This document shows, piece by piece, positions 5,806-53,122 of a stretch of DNA of 64,000 nt. The DNA lies in the NCBI RefSeq assembly GCF_000633935.1, contig NZ_KK214998.1:743844-807843 (forward strand). Reading direction: 5' to 3'. Below the pieces are notes generated by a model, which saw only the letters and a program-made list of their open reading frames with translations, was not told the origin of the DNA and did no database searches. The stretch's first letter is position 1. Each line of letters begins with the position of its first letter. This stretch comes from Ectothiorhodospira haloalkaliphila ATCC 51935 (GTDB lineage: Bacteria; Pseudomonadota; Gammaproteobacteria; Ectothiorhodospirales; Ectothiorhodospiraceae). Made by a program: the position numbers and the translations under genes.

Positions 5806-5895
5806 TGTGGGAGCGGGCCTTGCCCGCGAAGGCGGTGGGCACATCAGCATGGTCAGGGCGCTGCGGCAGCAGCGGCCGGAGTGTGTGCCCACCGC
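5806..5895. repeat. REP-like palindromic repeat, copy A (rearranged)
   Basis: The element begins with the common head TGTGGGAGCGGGCCTTGCCC. Its second half is flipped relative to copies B, C, D and F: the GCGGTGGGCACA arm (about 5830) is answered by TGTGCCCACCGC near 5884-5895, giving a long hairpin. It lies between asnO and grxD and could act as a transcription boundary. Confidence 0.75.
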
Positions 5896-30929: not shown

Positions 30930-32510
30930 ATGAAGAAGAATCTGCCGGTCACCGGCCGGGAACAGGCGGTAGCGGATCACGCCAATATTCTGTCCACGAC
31001 GGACCTCAAGGGCGCCATTTCCTACGTCAACGACGACTTCATTCGCATCAGCGGGTTCGTCGAGGACGAGTTGCTCAGGCGCAATCACAACATCGTCCGC
31101 CATCCGGACATGCCTCCCGCAGCCTTCAAGGACCTCTGGGACAGCGTCAAGGCGGGCCGCGCCTGGATGGGGCTGGTCAAGAATCGTTGCAAGAACGGCG
31201 ACCACTACTGGGTGAGTGCCTATGTCATGCCCATCCGCAAGGACGGGCAGGTGGCTGAGTACCAGTCGGTGCGTACCCGTCCCGCACGGGACTGGGTGGA
31301 TCGAGCCAACGGTGTGTATGCCGGGCTCATGAACAATCGACTTCCCCTTGGCATGCGTTTGCCCATGCCGCCGGTCGCGGTGCGTCTGGTGGGAGGCATG
31401 GCCGCGTCGGCCATGCTGGCGCTTGGGGTTGGCGCGCTGTTGGGTACGCCAGCACTCACCGCGTTGGTGCCCGTATTGCTGGCCCTGGTGCTGGCCGGTG
31501 GCCTGGGGATGTGGCTCCTGCAACCCCTCGGTCAATTGCGTATTCAGGCGAGGGAGATCACCCATAACCCGGTGGAGCAGTACGTCTACACCGGGCGCGC
31601 GGACGAATTCGGGGAGATCGAGTTCGCCATGCGCATGTTGCGATCCGAGACCGGCGCCGCCGTGGGGCGGGTATCCGATGCCGCCAGCCAGTTGGCCGAC
31701 TATGCCGACGCCATGGTGGACTCGGTGCGCAAGACCCGGGACGAGATTCTGCGGCAGCAGGCGGAGACCGACCAGGTGGCCACGGCAGTCAACCAGATGA
31801 CGGCCAGTGTTCAGGAGGTGGCCCGCAACGCCCAGAATGCCGCAGAGGCGGCCACGGCGGCGGATGTCAGCGCCAGTCAGGGTCGTCAGGTGGTCAGCTC
31901 CACCGAGCAGGTGATCGGCCAACTGGCCGACGAGGTGGAGCGCGCGGCCAGGGTCATCCACGAGTTGGAAGAAAGTGCCGGATCCATCAGTGCGGTCCTG
32001 GAGGTGATCCGCGGCATCGCCGAGCAAACCAACATGCTGGCCCTCAATGCCGCCATTGAAGCGGCCCGGGCGGGCGAGCACGGGCGTGGCTTTTCTGTGG
32101 TGGCCGACGAGGTGCGCAGCCTGGCATCCCGCACTCATGAGTCCACCCAGGAAATCCAGAGCACCATCGAAAAGCTGCAGCGCGGTGCACACTCCTCGGT
32201 GGTGGTGATGCAGAACAGCCGCAAGCAGGCGGAGAAAAGCGTCCAGCAGGCGGGTCGGGCTGCCCAGTCACTGGAAGAGATTGCCAGTAGCGTTGCTGCC
32301 ATCACCGATATGAGTGCCCAGATCGCCACGGCGGTGGATCAGCAGGGATCGGTCAGCGAGGAGATCAACCAGAGCATCACCCGCATCCGTGGCTATGCCG
32401 ATGGCAACGCCGATTCCGGTCAGCAGATCGAGTCGGCGGCCAGCCAGGTGGCGGGACTCTCTGCTGAACTCAAACTGCTGTCCCGACAATTCTGGGAGCG
32501 CCGCAACTGA
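30930..32510 (+). CDS. PAS-domain methyl-accepting chemotaxis protein, tandem copy 1
   Basis: A 526-residue Aer-like chemoreceptor. The N-terminal PAS domain (about 10-120; [35 protein letters not shown]) is cytoplasmic. Two adjacent membrane helices follow (about 150-172 and 177-197) with almost no periplasmic loop, then a HAMP-like link. The signalling domain has the conserved tip [23 protein letters not shown]. Such receptors sense redox or energy state from inside the cell; FAD binding would be expected but is not proven. There is no C-terminal CheR/CheB pentapeptide. Copy 2 follows after 58 bases. Confidence 0.93.
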
Positions 32511-32568
32511 TGAGTCACGCGAGGCACACATTCCATCACCCGGCCCCCTCCCATGCCGGAGGCAAACC

Positions 32569-34149
32569 ATGAAAAAGAATCTGCCGGTTACCGGGCGGGA
32601 GAAGACCTTTTCCGCCAATACCAACATCCTGTCCACCACCGATGCCAAGGGCACGATCACCGATGTAAACGATGACTTCGTGGACATCAGCGGTTTCTCG
32701 GTGGACGAGTTGATGCGCCAGAACCATAACATCGTCCGTCACCCGGACATGCCGCCGGCAGCCTTCCAGAATCTCTGGGACACCATCAAGAGTGGGCAGT
32801 CCTGGATGGGGTTGGTGAAGAATCGCTGCAAGAACGGGGATCACTACTGGGTGAGTGCCTACGTCACTCCCATTCGCAACAATGGGCGGATCACCGAATA
32901 CCAGTCCGTGCGCACCCGCCCTCCCCGGGAGTGCGTGGAGCGCGCCGACAGGCTGTATGCCCAGGTCATGGCCGGCCGGCCCCCCCTGGCTTTGAGAGGG
33001 TCCTTGCCCGGTCTGCGCATGCGCCTGCTGGGTGCCGTGGGGCTGGCCGGCCTGTTGGGCTGGCTCGGTAGTGCCCTGATGGGGGCGCCCGCCGGCCAGA
33101 CCCTGGTACCCATCCTGCTGTTCGTGGCCCTGGCAGGCGGTTGGGCCTGGTGGGTCACCCGTCCCCTGGCCCGACTGCAGGCACAGGCTCGCGCGGTGGT
33201 GCACAATCCGTTGTGTCAGTACGTCTACACCGGTCGCGTGGACGAGGTGGGAGAGATCCAGTTTGCCATGCGCATGCTGGCCACCGAGACCGGTGCTGCC
33301 GTGGGTCGCGTGGCGGAGGCGGCGCGTCGGCTTTCCCGGCAGATCAAGGAAATGGCTGGCGTCATTGAGCAGACACGACAGGAGATCCTCCGCGAGCAGG
33401 CCGAGACCGACCAGGTGGCCACTGCCGTGAACGAGATGGCCGCCAGTGTGCAGGAGGTGGCCCGCAATGCCCAGCATACGGCCCGTTCAGCCGAACAGGC
33501 CGATGCCAGTGCCGATAGCGGACGCCGGGTGGTGGTGTCCACCGGCGAGGCCATCGGCAACCTGTCGGATGAGGTGGAACGGGCCACCCACGCGATCCAT
33601 GAGCTGGAGCAGCGCACCGAGGAGATCAGCACGGTGGTGGAAGTGATCCAGGGGATAGCCGAGCAGACGAACCTGCTGGCCCTGAATGCGGCCATTGAGG
33701 CGGCCCGTGCCGGCGAGGAAGGGCGGGGCTTTGCGGTGGTGGCCGATGAGGTGCGCAGCCTGGCAGCCCGCACCCAGAACGCCACCCAGGAGATCCAGGG
33801 CATGATCGAAAAGCTCCAGGCGGGCGCGCAGTCTTCGGTGCAGGTGATGGGCCAGAGTCAGGAGCAGGCCGAGCGCAGTGTCCGTCAGGCCGACGAGGCG
33901 GCACAGTCACTGGAGGAGATCGCTCGCAATGTCAGCTCCATCACCGAGATGAGCGTACAGATTGCCACGGCGGTGGATGAGCAGAGTGCCGTGAGCGAGG
34001 AGATCAACCGCAGCATCACCAATATCCGCCATTCAGCAGATGGCAACGCCGACGCCATCGTTCAGATCGAGCAGGCCGCCCAGGAACTCAACCGGTTGTC
34101 CGAGCACCTGGAAGTGCTGGCCGGGCAATTCTGGGATCGTATTCATTGA
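32569..34149 (+). CDS. PAS-domain methyl-accepting chemotaxis protein, tandem copy 2
   Basis: It has the same length (526 residues) and layout as copy 1, beginning with the same [11 protein letters not shown]. The PAS domain and the tip are nearly identical. The membrane segment and the region just after it differ more (for example [20 protein letters not shown] here). Divergence is therefore concentrated around the transmembrane and upper coiled-coil parts. The ATG at 32569 is chosen by match with copy 1; a much longer frame runs upstream through copy 1 and is not real. This is a local gene duplication. Confidence 0.93.
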
Positions 34150-34185
34150 AGAAAGGCAACAGATGCATGAGCGTTGATCACCTTT

Positions 34186-34225
34186 CTTAACCGAAGGCTT
34201 TCAGCCTTAACCGAAGGCCTTCAGC
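34186..34225. repeat. tandem 20-bp duplication at the 3' end of the RuBisCO-like gene
   Basis: Two abutting copies of CTTAACCGAAGGCnTTCAGC (34186-34205 and 34206-34225) differ at one base. The right-hand copy encodes the final codons and stop of the RuBisCO-like gene; the left-hand copy repeats them after the stop. On the minus strand the junction also forms a small AAGGCT/AGCCTT hairpin. Confidence 0.85.
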
Positions 34226-35499
34226 GCCGCTGCCAGTTCCGGGTGCTGCTCTGCGTGGGTGTGCACATCCACCCCGGCGCCGATGGCGTCCCAGGCCTGG
34301 CGGATGCTGGTGGCGCCGGCGCGCGGGCCCATGGGATGGCCGAAGACACCCCGGCCGGGCACGAAGCCGAAGTCCACGCTGCCCACCTTGTCGTACACCC
34401 GTTTGAGCGTGGCCGCCGAATCACTCCCACCAGGTACCGGCAGGCAGGGCTTGATCCGGCCCATGGGCTCCAGGCAGGCGCGGATGTTGTCCTGCACCTC
34501 CTGGTCGGTGGTCATCATGCGCGGGCCGAAGCCGGGCATGATGACCGTGTCGAAGCCCGCCAGGCGCTGCAGGCGGGTCATCACCCGGCTGTGCACGCCG
34601 TAATGGGGCAGGCGGCTGAAGGCGGCAATGAACGGGAAGTGGGCGATCAGCGGCACCTGGGTGTGCTTGCGCAGCATGCGCACGCCGGACAGACCCACGG
34701 GCAGGGCATTGATGAGCAGGGCATTGGCGCCTCGGGCCACCGCGGCATCGTGCAACTCCACCAGCCGATCCACCTCGTCGGTGATATTGGCCAGGTAGAT
34801 CTTGGGGGTGCCGGTGGCCTCTTCGGCTTCACGTCGCGCGCGCCCCAGATGTTCGCAGCGCTCGGTCAGGGGTGACCACTCCGGGTCGGCCAGCATTTCA
34901 TCGTCCTTGGCGATGTCCAGACCGCCCAGCCAGGCCTCGTGGCCAATGGCGGAGAAGGCATCCGGTGGGAGACCGATATTGGGTTTGATCACCCCGAAGA
35001 AGATGGGGCGGTCATGAGCATTGAGTTGATCCCTGAGCCCCTGCACCCCGAATTTCGGACCCTGGAAATGGGCCAGGAAGCTGTCCGGAAAGTGGATGTC
35101 CTGCAACTTGATCAACGGGATGCCGGGGGTGAAGAAAGGCCCTTCGCCCAGCACCGCCGAGATCAGATTGGGAATGCGCGGCCCGAAGTTCTCGTGGGGA
35201 TGGGCGATCTTTACACGGCAGGCGAAGATGTCTCCCTGGGCGGCGTGCTGCACGGGATAGCTCAGAGCCTGACGTTGCTCAATGACTTCCAGTTCCAGCA
35301 CCTTGGCGCCAAACCGCGGGCGCAGATCCTCATCCACGTCCACCCGTTTCCACTGGGCCGTGGATTGCTCGCTGCACAGATGGGCCGCTGCCGTGCGCGG
35401 GTCACCCACGCACTCCAGGGTGTAGTCCAGGATGAGGTGTTTTTCCAGATCGATCTGGTGGGGTTCGGCAAAGAAGCCGTCGATGTCGGAGGCCTGCAT
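34207..35499 (-). CDS. RuBisCO-like protein, form IV (Photo-type)
   Basis: A 430-residue RuBisCO-fold protein closely resembling the Chlorobium tepidum [85 protein letters not shown]. Metal-site residues of the KDDE motif (Lys198, Asp200, Glu201) and the first lysine (Lys172) remain. The second lysine is Asn174, loop 6 has no lysine (GFGPRM), and the phosphate/substrate Arg after His287 is Phe. It therefore cannot carboxylate ribulose bisphosphate. The Chlorobium relative affects sulfur-compound oxidation and stress; the reaction is unknown. It starts five bases after yjbQ ends, so the two form an operon. Confidence 0.93.
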
Positions 35500-35504
35500 G
35501 GGCG

Positions 35505-35933
35505 TTACTCGGTCCCCATGAAATGGACGGATAGACGGCGCTCCGGTCGGGGGCCGTCCAGTTCGATGAAAAAGATGGACTGCCAGCTTCCCAGACGCAG
35601 TTCGCCATCAACGATGGGGATGGTTTCCGAGGCGTTCATGAACAGCCCCATGAGATGGGAGTGGGCGTTGTCGCGGCCATCCACTGGATTCTCGTTATGC
35701 CGGTAATCCCCGTCGCGGGGCACCAGGCGCTTGAGGTGGGTGAGCATGTCCTGCTGGAGCATGGGCTCCTGCTCATTGAGATTCACGTAGGCGGTGGTGT
35801 GACGGGAGATCAGGGTGACGATGCCATTGCGGATGCCGCTGGTGGCGTGCAGGTCACGGACGGCATCGGTGACATCCAGGATCTGGATGGGGGCCTCGGT
35901 GACAAGGGGCAGTTCGTGATGGCTGATCTTCAT
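35505..35933 (-). CDS. yjbQ: YjbQ/UPF0047 family protein
   Basis: A 142-residue UPF0047 protein with the family core [20 protein letters not shown], a metal-site-like [19 protein letters not shown] and the C-terminal [20 protein letters not shown]. Members have weak thiamine-phosphate synthase activity that can replace ThiE, but the main reaction is uncertain. It is the first gene of the operon with the RuBisCO-like protein. Confidence 0.92.
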
Positions 35934-36054
35934 GACAGGCCCGGTGGCAGCAGGGGTGTGGCAAAGCTAGCCGGGGGGCGTTGGGCTGTCAAGCAGTGCC
36001 CAGTTGGTTGCCCTCCCCTGAAGGACCTTCTTGCTTGTGGGGTTGCCATGTTCC

Positions 36055-36147
36055 TGTGGGAGCGGGCCTTGCCCGCGAAGGCGGCGGGCAACAAACTCAT
36101 GCAAGGCGCTGCTGTCGCAGCGCATCGCCGGCAGCCCGACTCCCACA
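36055..36147 (+). repeat. REP-like palindromic repeat, copy D
   Basis: Full-length copy with head TGTGGGAGCGGGCCTTGCCC, internal GCGCTGCTGTCGCAGCGC and tail CCGGCAGCCCGACTCCCACA (some divergence). It lies between the end of the small membrane protein gene (36157) and the start of yjbQ (35933). Confidence 0.85.
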
Positions 36148-36156
36148 GGTAGGTGG

Positions 36157-36612
36157 TCAGCCCTGGGGTTGCTGGGAGGCTGTTGAAGGCTCAGCCTCCG
36201 CCCCCGTCTCCGTCTCCGGGGCCGGGGACTGCCGAGTGGCCTGGCTTTCAGGCTTGTGCTTCGGGCCGATGCCCAGCATGTGCAGCATCACCGGGAAGGC
36301 CAGGATGGCGAACAGCACACCAAAACCGACACTGGCGCCAATGAGCGAAAGGTAATCCACAGCCCCCGCCAGCATCTCCCAACTGGAACGGGTGATCCCC
36401 GGCAGTGTGATCAAGGCCATCACGAAGGTGAATACACCAAAGCCGATGGAGGCCTTGAAGGGCAGGGAAAATTTGCGACGGCGGCCGGAGGTGCGCTTGA
36501 AGAAGAGCCCCAGCAGCACAAGATCAAGCACGATCAGCGGGATCAGCAGCCAGAACCACCCACGGAAAAACTCCAGTACCACAGCCAGAATGCCTACGAA
36601 TGAAAAGGCCAT
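36157..36612 (-). CDS. small membrane protein downstream of sqr, unknown function
   Basis: A 151-residue protein with about four hydrophobic helices (roughly 5-35, 55-72, 80-95 and 95-112) and a polar, Pro/Glu/Ala-rich cytoplasmic-looking tail (about 115-151). The ATG at 36612 follows GGAG. It starts 27 bases after the sqr stop in the same direction, so it is probably cotranscribed and may help anchor or serve the sulfide oxidoreductase at the membrane. The family was not recognised. Confidence 0.75.
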   Translation of the reverse strand: MAFSFVGILAVVLEFFRGWFWLLIPLIVLDLVLLGLFFKRTSGRRRKFSLPFKASIGFGVFTFVMALITLPGITRSSWEMLAGAVDYLSLIGASVGFGVLFAILAFPVMLHMLGIGPKHKPESQATRQSPAPETETGAEAEPSTASQQPQG

Positions 36613-36639
36613 TGCTTGCTCCTAAGTTTGCAACGTGAA

Positions 36640-38001
36640 TCAGATACGGCCGCGCAGCATCGCGCGGTAGGCGGCCAGCAGGAGACGATCCTTCATGACC
36701 CACGGCACCCAGTGTTCCTCGTAGGGGCTGATGACGGGGAAAGATGGTTTCATTTTCAGGTCGTAATCGAATTCCACCAGGATGGCCTTGCCCAATTCGG
36801 TGATCAACGGGCAGGAGGTGTAGCCATCGTAGCTGGCTGAGTTCTCACGGCCCTGAATGGCCTGGATCATGTTCTCCACGGCCACCGGGACCTGCGACTT
36901 CACACTGGCCGCCGTCTTGCCGATGGGCACGCCGTTGATGTCCCCGGCGCCAAAGACATTGGCATAGCGGTTGTGCTGCAGGGTGTGGCGATCCACTTCC
37001 AGCCAGCCCTTGAACGGGGCCTCCTGAGCCGCCAGTTCACTCTCGCGCAGCGAATCCGGTGCGCTCATGGGCGGCACCACGTGGATGAAGTCGTAATCCA
37101 GGGTTTCATCGCCCAGGGGGGTGTCGAAGGTGGCGGTCTTGGCGTCCGGGTCGATGGCCGTGAGGGGATGGTCCCAGTGAATCTGGATGCCGCGTTCCGG
37201 GAAGTTCTTGCTCAGGAAATCGTCGGCGTCCGGTTGGGAGAACAGGCTGGCACCCGGTGGCAGGTAGTGCATCTCGGCCTTGTCCCGTGTGCCGCGTTCC
37301 TTCATGCGGCTCTCGGTGAGCATGGTGACCTTCAGCGGGGCGCCGGCACACTTGATGTCGCCCCGCGGGCGGGTGAACAGCCCCACGCCGCCGTTGTCGA
37401 CAAACTCGTCCACGGCCCGCCAGGTGCGCTCGGCCAGTTCAGGCTTGTCGTATACGCAGCCCACGCCACGCTGGCCGATCAACTCCTCCGACATGCCCTC
37501 CACCTGATCATAATTGACCTGCAGGCCCGTGGTGACCATGAGGTAATCGTATTCAACGGTGCGCCCGTCGTCGGTGATCACCCGGTTGTTGTCCGGGTCG
37601 TATTCGGCCACCATGTCATGAATCCAGTTCACGCCGGAGGGCACGTAGCGACGGTTGCTGTCGAGGGTTTTGGCCGTGTTCCACACCCCTGTGGCCACCA
37701 GAGTGAGGCCGGGCTGGTAGTAGTGGTCTTCGCGCCGATCGATCAGGGTGATCTGGGCGCCCTCCAGTTCGCGATTCAGGCGCGTGGCGCAGGACAGGCC
37801 GGCGGCACCGGCGCCGACAATGACAATGCGCGCGTTGGTGGATACGGCACGTGCCGTACCCGGGTAGAGCAGGCCGCTGGTGGCGGCGCCGGCCAGCAGG
37901 GCGCCGCCGCCGGAAAGGCGCAGGAAGTCGCGTCGGGAGAGGCCCTTGTCGCCCAGCGCGCGCTGGACCGCCGATTGGATCTGCTTATCTTTATGGTTCA
38001 T
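36640..38001 (-). CDS. sqr: sulfide:quinone oxidoreductase family flavoprotein, Tat-exported
   Basis: A 453-residue FAD enzyme oxidising sulfide and passing electrons to quinone. A twin-arginine signal (SRRDFLRLS at 22-30, then an Ala/Gly-rich stretch) directs folded export. The FAD fold is IVIVGAGAAGLSCATRLN. Segments IKCAGAPLK (Cys218), VVPPMSAPDSL, HTLQHNRYANVFGAGD and YTSCPLITE (Cys397) match the mitochondrial-type (type II) SQR, whose catalytic disulfide uses these two cysteines; Cys182 is an extra. Flavocytochrome c sulfide dehydrogenase is less likely. It is divergent from minC and followed by a membrane protein gene. Confidence 0.85.
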   Translation of the reverse strand: MNHKDKQIQSAVQRALGDKGLSRRDFLRLSGGGALLAGAATSGLLYPGTARAVSTNARIVIVGAGAAGLSCATRLNRELEGAQITLIDRREDHYYQPGLTLVATGVWNTAKTLDSNRRYVPSGVNWIHDMVAEYDPDNNRVITDDGRTVEYDYLMVTTGLQVNYDQVEGMSEELIGQRGVGCVYDKPELAERTWRAVDEFVDNGGVGLFTRPRGDIKCAGAPLKVTMLTESRMKERGTRDKAEMHYLPPGASLFSQPDADDFLSKNFPERGIQIHWDHPLTAIDPDAKTATFDTPLGDETLDYDFIHVVPPMSAPDSLRESELAAQEAPFKGWLEVDRHTLQHNRYANVFGAGDINGVPIGKTAASVKSQVPVAVENMIQAIQGRENSASYDGYTSCPLITELGKAILVEFDYDLKMKPSFPVISPYEEHWVPWVMKDRLLLAAYRAMLRGRI

Positions 38002-38230
38002 CGGTACTTCGCTCCATACCTCGGGGTGGTCAGCCGGGGTGGTCGAACGAACGCCCGGGGGGCGTGGTATAGACGCTCACCACTGCGGCTGAAATGTTCG
38101 CTTTATAGTATAAGCATATTAGCATGTTGTCGGCGCGAACAATCCAGCAAACCGTTACAATGCGCGCCTCGACAGACTCAACAAACCTACAAAGGCTGGC
38201 GACGCTGGCCGATCTGCCGGACCATTTCCC
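38002..38230. promoter_or_regulatory. divergent sqr / minC control region
   Basis: This 229-base gap carries promoters for two opposite genes. The stretch around 38098-38125 (TTTATAGTATAAGCATATTA) is the most AT-rich and contains imperfect dyads. An ArsR-type (SqrR/BigR-like) repressor site would be plausible for sqr, but no clear operator can be assigned by eye. Confidence 0.4.
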
Positions 38231-51700: not shown

Positions 51701-53122
51701 TCAGCGGTGCTGCACGTCCAGCTTGTCCACGGTGTCGAACTCGAACTTGATCTCCTTCCACGTTTCCATGGCGACCTTGAGTTCGGGGCTGTGCCCGGCT
51801 GCGGCGGTGAGGATGTCCTTGCCTTCCTTCTCCAGCTCGCGACCTTCGTTGCGGGCCTGCACGCAGGCCTCCAGGGCCACACGGTTGGCGGTGGCGCCGG
51901 CCGCGTTGCCCCAGGGGTGGCCCAGGGTGCCGCCGCCGAACTGGAACACGGCGTCGTCACCGAAGATGGAGACCAGAGCCGGCATGTGCCACACGTGGAT
52001 GCCACCGGAGGCCACGGCGAAGACGCCGGGCATGGAGCCCCAGTCCTGATCGAAGAAGATGCCGCGGGAACGGTCTTCCTTGACATAGTCCTCGCGCAGC
52101 AGATCGATCCAGCCGAGGGTGGCGTCACGGTCGCCTTCCAGCTTGCCCACCACGGTGCCGGTGTGCAGGTGGTCACCGCCCGACAGACGCAGGATCTTGG
52201 CCAGCACCCGGAAGTGGATGCCGTGGCGCGGATGACGGTCCATGACCGCGTGCATGGCGCGGTGGATGTGCAGCAGCATGCCGTTCTCGCGGCACCAGTT
52301 GGCCAGGCCGGTGTTGGCGCAGAAACCACCGGTGATGTAGTCGTGCATGATGATCGGGGCGCCGATCTCCTTGGCGTACTCGGCACGCTTGTACATCTCT
52401 TCCGGGGTGGGCGCGGTCACGTTCAGGTAGTGGCCCTTGCGCTCGCCGGTTTCCTGCTCCGCCTTGTCGATGGCCTCCATGACGAAGTCGAACCGCTGAC
52501 GCCAGCGCATGAACGGCTGGGAGTTCACGTTCTCATCGTCCTTGGTGAAGTCCAGGCCACCGCGCAGGCATTCATAAACGGCGCGGCCGTAGTTCTTGGC
52601 GGACAGGCCCAGCTTGGGCTTGATGGTGCAGCCCAGCAGGCCGCGGCCATACTTGTTCATGATGTCGCGTTCCACCTGGATGCCGTGCGGGGGGCCACCG
52701 CAGGTCTTCACATAGGCAATGGGGAAGCGAACGTCTTCCAGACGCAGGGTACGCACGGCCTTGAAGCCGAACACGTTGCCCACCAGGGAGGTGAACACGT
52801 TGACCACCGAACCTTCCTCAAACAGGTCGATGGGGTAGGCGATGAAGGCATAGAAGCACTCATCGTCACCAGGGACGTCTTCGATCTGGTAGGCACGGCC
52901 CTTGTAGTAGTCCATGTCGGTCAGCAGGTCGGTCCACACCGTGGTCCAGGTGCCCGTGGAGGACTCGGCGGCCACGGCGGCGGCAGCCTCTTCGCGATCC
53001 ACACCCGGCTGCGGGGTGATCTTGAACACCGCCAGGATGTCGGTATCGCGGGGGGTGTATTCCGGGGTCCAGTACGTCTGGCGGTAATCTTTTACACCAG
53101 CACTGTAGGTCTTGACTGCCAT
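51701..53122 (-). CDS. cbbL: RuBisCO large subunit (form IA)
   Basis: A 473-residue form I large subunit, the CO2-fixing enzyme of the Calvin cycle. Active-site residues are complete: TIKPKLGL (Lys168, Lys170), the carbamylated Lys194 in [10 protein letters not shown], the His in HRAMHAV, loop 6 lysine Lys327 in [11 protein letters not shown], and [11 protein letters not shown]. The sequence is of the IA type, and coupling to cbbQ and cbbO, with no carboxysome genes, marks it as the non-carboxysomal IAq group. A GGAG site precedes the ATG. The 246-base upstream region has a palindrome likely used by a LysR regulator; no cbbR lies in the window. Confidence 0.98.

Follow-up and report, generated by a model that had tools for sequence, protein, structure and literature searches.

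Photo-type (form IV) RuBisCO-like proteins (RLPs) were reportedly first described in Chlorobium in 2001. Phototrophs are grouped by their IV-Photo RLP cluster, as one study notes (PMC7844134), and the function of these proteins was still called unresolved in 2018 (PMC5893883) and, for the Thiocapsa protein, in 2024 (PMC10892978). Here we analyze an RLP of this type encoded in a 64,000-nucleotide stretch of Ectothiorhodospira haloalkaliphila ATCC 51935 (contig NZ_KK214998.1, positions 743,844 to 807,843; the window), together with the small yjbQ (UPF0047) gene that precedes it. That Photo-type RLPs occur in phototrophs was already known; what we add is a conserved YjbQ partner. No description of this pairing was found in the open-licence literature searched, and older papers could mention it; one article on salinity in plants (PMC10149814) contains YjbQ and RuBisCO a single time each.

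The closest described relatives are the RLPs of Chlorobium (1YKW/1TEL) and RLP2 of R. palustris (2QYG), which belong to the same family as the window RLP (∼700 bits) and share its active-site changes and its tie to phototrophy. No protein-level difference from these was found, and the addition lies in the YjbQ partner and the gene contexts. A second point of comparison is the shunt from methylthioadenosine (MTA) to isoprenoids. There, an R. rubrum-type (DeepYkr) RLP is paired with a small second enzyme, the cupin MTXu-5P methylsulfurylase; 1,3-isomerase chemistry has been proposed, and 1-deoxy-D-xylulose 5-phosphate (DXP) and isoprenoids are the shown or proposed end (PMC5893883, PMC10663253). 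RLPs of this type (RLP1) perform the isomerization of 5-methylthioribulose-1-phosphate, and the cupin leads on to DXP (PMC5893883, PMC10663253). In R. palustris, the locus tags of such a pair are RPA2169/RPA2170. The shunt differs in its RLP clade and in having a cupin where we find YjbQ, and R. palustris RLP2 reportedly takes no part in MTA metabolism. In Vulcanimicrobium alpinus, a 'type IV deep' RLP lies amid the bacteriochlorophyll genes of the photosynthesis gene cluster, a similar setting for an RLP of a clade other than the Photo-type (PMC9758169).

The RuBisCO-like protein and its YjbQ partner

The RLP gene (34207..35499, minus strand; 430 aa) is the second gene of the pair. Its product matches the RuBisCO_large family (167.6 bits), and its closest solved relatives are R. 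palustris RLP2 (2QYG, 706 bits) and the Chlorobium RLP (1TEL/1YKW, 698/696 bits), with all other solved proteins of the RuBisCO superfamily at 199 bits or less. It scored below the NCBIfam cut-offs for RuBisCO (rubisco_III, 214.6 versus 497; PRK04208, 200.8 versus 438) and for the OiaX decarboxylase (227.5 versus 700). The same holds for MtnW, the 2,3-diketo-5-methylthiopentyl-1-phosphate enolase, an RLP of the same superfamily by sequence (TIGR03332, 154.6 versus 513.6 bits).

We aligned the active site with those of the host genome's own RuBisCOs and of six other Photo RLPs. The KDDE metal site is intact. The KPK motif of RuBisCO reads KPN, so the first lysine is present and the second gone; GKLEG of loop 6 stands opposite MPGFG, with loss of the lysine. 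HRAMH is replaced by HFPFI (histidine retained, arginine gone) and ASGG by PGGS, and the five-residue HLHTG stretch ahead of loop 6 is absent. The same changes are seen across all Photo RLPs in the alignment. The window RLP is of the Photo type and, judged by these residues, is not a carboxylase; our best guess for its chemistry is that of an enolase or isomerase, with a phosphorylated metabolite as substrate. A true RuBisCO large subunit lies ∼16 kb away, outside the module, at 51758-52684 on the minus strand (the extent of the Pfam match only, converted from genome coordinates), and a second true RuBisCO of the genome lies beyond the window. An earlier reading of this DNA, made from sequence only, had proposed the kinship with the Chlorobium RLP, the loss of both lysines beside an intact KDDE site, and the coexistence with a RuBisCO 16 kb off; the comparisons bear out each of these.

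Directly upstream, at 35505..35933 on the minus strand, is the gene for a 142-residue YjbQ protein. As the sequence-only reading had noted, five bases separate the two genes (spacer 35500..35504, minus strand, from the yjbQ stop to the rlp start), a tight spacing that is conserved. The protein clears both PF01894 (132 versus 27 bits) and TIGR00149 (112.9 versus 67.75 bits). We refer to it as YjbQ-R, a member of an RLP-partner subfamily that was delineated as follows.

At least one YjbQ was present in each of 30 RLP genomes tested. We placed 98 YjbQ sequences in an unrooted tree, short at 142 columns. They comprise 58 RLP-linked YjbQs, 11 from Chlorobi (one per genome), and 29 others drawn from the 30 RLP genomes. 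A single branch (support 98/97) splits the 58 RLP-linked and 11 Chlorobi proteins from the 29 others. Fourteen positions reach ≥95% conservation among 77 YjbQ-R rows together with ≥85% among 30 rows of other YjbQs. Such family-wide positions, for example H45, D62, H79, H93, W117 and E124, are intact in YjbQ-R. What sets YjbQ-R apart from the family described by TIGR00149 is its link to the RLP and a set of nearly invariant residues of its own, among them D85, R87, H91, L97, L125 and P128. By tree and residues, then, the RLP partner is a separate YjbQ subfamily that goes with the RLP. The window's genome also has two generic YjbQ copies of identical protein sequence (G000 C1:226875-227225 and C2:35583-35933) besides the RLP-linked copy.

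Conservation of the pair and its tie to phototrophy

To survey RLPs we scanned one genome for each of 84,980 species, which yielded 218 relatives; the locus counts below come from the best 80 of these 218. In 55 of the 80 named loci, yjbQ lies upstream of rlp on the same strand. The pairing thus recurs, and the sequence-only reading passes the test of recurrence that it had set for itself. The remaining 25 loci, which have no adjacent yjbQ, all bear titles of green sulfur bacteria (Chlorobiaceae, Chlorobium, Chlorobaculum, Pelodictyon and one 'Chlorobiales bacterium'). In three of these (L045, L092 and L094), the DNA upstream of the RLP spans under 700 bases and is taken up by lsrF. Across the 55 pairs, with start codons chosen by script, the gap has a median of 5 bp; 41 pairs lie no more than 30 bp apart and 53 no more than 200 bp, with the two widest gaps at 278 and 1250 bp and a 4-bp overlap in five. 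A fusion of RLP and YjbQ in L046 and L053, suspected from the ORF (open reading frame) table, was rejected on coordinates that put the two genes in different frames.

The flanks of the pair vary by eye among Ectothiorhodospira, Chromatiaceae, Rhodopseudomonas, Rhodomicrobium, Rhodopila, Rhodoblastus and a Gemmatimonas metagenome-assembled genome (MAG). Because the flanks differ between lineages while the pair stays, the two genes have been held together through rearranged surroundings. In green sulfur bacteria, we followed 11 of the 25 Chlorobi loci to their genomes, and YjbQ-R is kept in all 11, away from the RLP.

Presence of the RLP was then compared with that of a type-II reaction centre. 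The RLP was counted at E ≤1e-100, excluding RuBisCOs, and the reaction centre as PF00124 over its curated cut-off; since this family covers type-II reaction centres, green sulfur bacteria count as phototrophs by taxonomy only. Among 583 genomes, 111 have both, 2 the RLP only, 14 the reaction centre only and 456 neither. In the window's order (n = 47) the corresponding numbers are 11, 0, 0 and 36, and the pair is present in all 11 genomes that carry the RLP; the host genome itself matched PF00124 twice. The Chromatiales order (n = 195) gave 73 with both, 2 with the RLP only, 2 with the reaction centre only (G166 and G201) and 118 with neither. The RLP-only genomes are G261 and G262, the latter with a reaction-centre match that falls under the cut-off. 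In the Rhodopseudomonas family (n = 341), 27 have both, none the RLP only, 12 the reaction centre only and 302 neither. Thus, in the three type-II groups sampled, the RLP is nearly exclusive to genomes with a reaction centre. Taken with the survey of loci, these data make it almost certain that the yjbQ-rlp pair is a real conserved module of phototrophs.

A Chloroherpetonaceae MAG (L025) retains the adjacent pair, with its RLP beside those of Chlorobi in the RLP tree (84/81) and its YjbQ by those of Ectothiorhodospira in the YjbQ tree (86/87). A joint transfer of the pair into this MAG was considered, and the two trees point different ways on it. In a small-genome relative (G006, locus L013), the RLP match ends at residue 407 of 430, and both YjbQ and RLP sit on long branches; the function of this RLP is possibly altered. 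RLPs borne on plasmids comprise one Photo-type match (Ca. Thiodictyon) and three distant ones at 32–34% identity.

Gene neighbours and possible function

Beyond YjbQ, the neighbours that recur outside Ectothiorhodospira concern pigments, isoprenoids and phosphosugars. Eleven of the 80 loci have the gene order pufL, pufM, pufC, yjbQ, rlp, idi, with lipA next in eight. Plasmid pTs485 of Ca. Thiodictyon syntrophicum has pufLMC, pufBA, idi, yjbQ and rlp in this order, followed by crtB/crtI on the opposite strand; idi and yjbQ are 1 bp apart, and yjbQ and rlp overlap by four bases. This plasmid (locus L186, 485 kb) bears reaction-centre, bacteriochlorophyll and carotenoid genes along with idi-yjbQ-rlp. 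In the Chromatiales order, PufL/M lies within 5 kb on the same contig for 47 of 75 RLPs (largest distance 3.2 kb); three of the 75 have no listed place. Neighbouring puf and idi genes are a feature of some of the purple sulfur bacteria. In one Rhodomicrobium locus (L046), dxs ends ∼0.8 kb ahead of yjbQ and an antisense gene lies in the interval; a second Rhodomicrobium locus (L029) has no dxs at that place.

In green sulfur bacteria, the two halves of the split pair have neighbours of their own. In each of the 11 genomes, YjbQ-R lies directly upstream of an ORF on the same strand, and these ORFs all belong to one conserved cluster; the two cluster members tested are dxs, the gene for DXP synthase (TIGR00204, 794 and 776 bits versus a cut-off of 466). 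The RLP follows lsrF in all 25 loci (LsrF model, 510 versus 297 bits, for one representative) and stands beside a bifunctional class II aldolase/short-chain dehydrogenase (SDR) in 22, the other three being short upstream. Further upstream, bchF is found in 19 of the 25; it is absent from L056 and L077 despite enough DNA fetched. Standing with lsrF, the aldolase/SDR gene and bchF, the Chlorobi RLPs place phosphosugar enzymes next to a bacteriochlorophyll gene.

Such neighbours direct attention to the synthesis of isoprenoid tails for light-harvesting pigments and away from sulfur oxidation. The reading we favor, at close to even confidence, is that RLP and YjbQ-R serve isoprenoid and pigment supply at the DXP node, for bacteriochlorophyll and carotenoid tails, in anoxygenic phototrophs. 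The RLP would carry out a 1,3-isomerization or enolization of a 5-deoxy or 5-substituted ribulose-1-phosphate, chemistry of the R. rubrum type, and YjbQ-R would process the product or a side product, much as the cupin does in company with the R. rubrum-type RLP. The named R. palustris loci have RLPs 72–73% identical to that of the window. R. palustris RLP2 is reported to have no role in MTA salvage and to isomerize 5-methylthioribulose-1-phosphate only slightly and slowly (PMC5893883), which would be expected of an enzyme whose true substrate is a related compound. For YjbQ, overexpression in E. coli relieves a pdxB mutant, and a feed into the DXP-dependent vitamin B6 route was suggested (PMC7954711); YjbQ may therefore handle small phosphorylated metabolites.

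A more specific version, which we consider rather unlikely, is a second shunt from S-adenosylmethionine (SAM) to isoprenoids, specific to anoxygenic phototrophs, in which the Photo-RLP turns 5-deoxyribulose-1-phosphate directly into DXP. The starting material would be 5′-deoxyadenosine, a waste product of radical-SAM enzymes in bacteriochlorophyll and cofactor synthesis, with MtnA on the route to 5-deoxyribulose-1-phosphate. With the methylthio group replaced by hydrogen, the product of the RLP would be DXP itself, and YjbQ-R would handle this product or a stereoisomer of it. Pigment synthesis, if this were true, would feed the waste of its own radical-SAM steps back into the isoprenoid tails of its products. 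MtnA, which would make substrates of the ribulose-1-phosphate type and so bears on the broader DXP-node reading too, is present in all 30 module genomes. A match to the class II aldolase family (MtnB/DrdA-type), whose members could put the MtnA product to another use, is missing from 11 of these, all outside Chlorobi, whereas 12 of 14 control genomes have one. But 8 of the 14 controls likewise have MtnA over the cut-off, and 19 of the module genomes, the window's with its MtnB among them, do carry a gene of the class II aldolase family. The pattern is fitting but not specific. A strict tie of the RLP to the anaerobic cyclase BchE, a radical-SAM enzyme, is somewhat disfavored, because a paper on aerobic phototrophs reports the same RLP type in G. 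phototrophica (PMC7844134).

Several further observations weigh against a role at the DXP node. Of the 55 non-Chlorobi loci, just 14 have any of 14 probed photosynthesis or isoprenoid genes within the DNA fetched (15 with dxs), and three of these 14 loci have a distant idi match alone (42–46% identity). Among the 75 Chromatiales RLPs, 25 lie away from PufL/M, 21 of them on a different contig and 4 at a long distance on the same one, and in the window's genome the reaction-centre genes are on a contig other than that of the RLP. Clustering with photosynthesis genes may reflect co-regulation only. In the Rhodopseudomonas family, 12 of the 39 sampled phototrophs have no RLP, and the 583 genomes are not independent, because the distributions of RLP and reaction centre share phylogeny. 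Since dxs is retained in Chlorobi, the module is not a plain substitute for Dxs. Finally, the R. palustris RLP2 deletion reportedly gave no phenotype in MTA metabolism (PMC5893883). Our confidence in the DXP-node reading is slightly reduced because only 2 of the 11 dxs neighbours are model-identified and only about one quarter of the non-Chlorobi loci have pigment neighbours.

Of the competing explanations, the one that survives best, though unlikely, is adjacency by descent only, in which the two genes share a promoter and a phototrophic host while their products act in separate pathways. The pair is probably old, because the RLP tree sets the paired Chloroherpetonaceae RLP beside Chlorobi (84/81), so some common inheritance is certain. 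Yet descent alone sits poorly with a pair that stays within 200 bp in 53 of 55 loci while its flanks are scrambled, and with the retention of the same YjbQ subfamily in all 11 split-pair genomes tested.

The Chlorobi neighbours suggest a different pathway, namely salvage through breakdown of phospho-4,5-dihydroxy-2,3-pentanedione (P-DPD) of the LsrF type or of a deoxysugar. Here the RLP would act as an isomerase with LsrF and the class II aldolase/dehydrogenase, yielding dihydroxyacetone phosphate and acetyl-CoA instead of isoprenoids. The constancy of lsrF and near-constancy of the aldolase/SDR gene beside Chlorobi RLPs, and the clear LsrF score of the representative, speak for such a route. 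But the DNA fetched for the 55 non-Chlorobi loci contained neither gene, and the 11 module genomes that lack a class II aldolase-family match are all non-Chlorobi. We hold this route quite improbable as the role of the module.

Another rival has RLP and YjbQ take part in sulfide or thiosulfate oxidation, or in the handling of oxidative stress. A sulfur-oxidation role, hinted at by the sequence-only reading, is the part of its interpretation that has fared poorly, whereas the Photo-type assignment, the tie to YjbQ and the coexistence with RuBisCO stand. In Ectothiorhodospira, a gene similar to sulfide:quinone oxidoreductase (SQR) lies upstream of the pair on the same strand, and loss of the C. 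tepidum RLP affects sulfur oxidation and stress response according to PMC5893883. However, the SQR synteny, seen in 7 of 7 named Ectothiorhodospira loci, is confined to that genus (any SQR match among the other 73 loci: one, at 26% identity), and the recurrent neighbours elsewhere are pigment, isoprenoid or phosphosugar genes. Moreover, the R. palustris RLP2 deletion reportedly lacks the sulfur phenotypes of the C. tepidum mutant (PMC5893883). We regard a sulfur module as improbable, and do not favor a sulfur-oxidation operon with the SQR-like gene as the general role.

Still less probable, in our view, is a role in thiamine or B6 supply. YjbQ-R would make or repair thiamine phosphate as a cofactor source for Dxs, and the RLP would supply or spare DXP. 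Dxs is a thiamine-dependent enzyme, YjbQ-R adjoins dxs in Chlorobi, and the YjbQ family is named for a thiamine-phosphate synthase activity; the suggested feed into the B6 route (PMC7954711) fits as well. But ThiE matched in 30 of 30 module genomes, 29 of them over the curated cut-off, which makes a second thiamine-phosphate synthase superfluous. YjbQ-R is thus not needed in this capacity, YjbQ is unlikely to act as the cell's thiamine-phosphate synthase, and its candidacy as the sole one was dropped. A supply role also leaves the phototroph-bound distribution unexplained. RuBisCO-linked housekeeping, such as removal of RuBisCO inhibitors, is not favored, with the RLP common to green sulfur bacteria, which fix CO2 without RuBisCO.

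Surroundings in Ectothiorhodospira and meaning of the module

Upstream of the pair and outside the general module lie two genes that we list as context. The first (36157..36612, minus strand) encodes a small protein of 151 aa, a membrane protein by eye, with no family match. The second (36640..38001, minus strand) is the SQR-like flavoprotein gene, whose closest solved relative is a mitochondrial SQR. Both are found upstream of the pair in 7 of 7 named Ectothiorhodospira loci, and as a block they are conserved upstream of yjbQ-rlp in Ectothiorhodospira only. A scan of 34100-38100 found no promoter- or terminator-like sites; shuffles gave just 0.7 and 2.4, so this negative carries little weight.

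A 23-base palindromic element resembling repetitive extragenic palindromes, GTGGGAGCGGGCCTTGCCCGCGA, has seven matches in the window with at most 3 mismatches, and 0 in 100 shuffles. One copy (36056-36078) lies between the small membrane ORF and yjbQ; the others are at 5807, 15325, 24042, 40936, 40992 and 50230. On the other side of the pair, two tandem chemoreceptor-like genes occupy 30930-34149. The second is a PAS-HAMP-MCP protein by Pfam, and the N-terminus of the first is very similar to that of the second by eye. Two such ORFs lie downstream of rlp, on the opposite strand, in the seven named Ectothiorhodospira loci.

For the Photo-type RLPs, the partner described here persists in Proteobacteria, in a Gemmatimonas MAG and, although not adjacent to the RLP, in green sulfur bacteria, and the links to dxs, idi and puf turn it into a concrete, testable pathway. 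For the YjbQ family, otherwise known through side activities, the module offers a handle on its physiological role.

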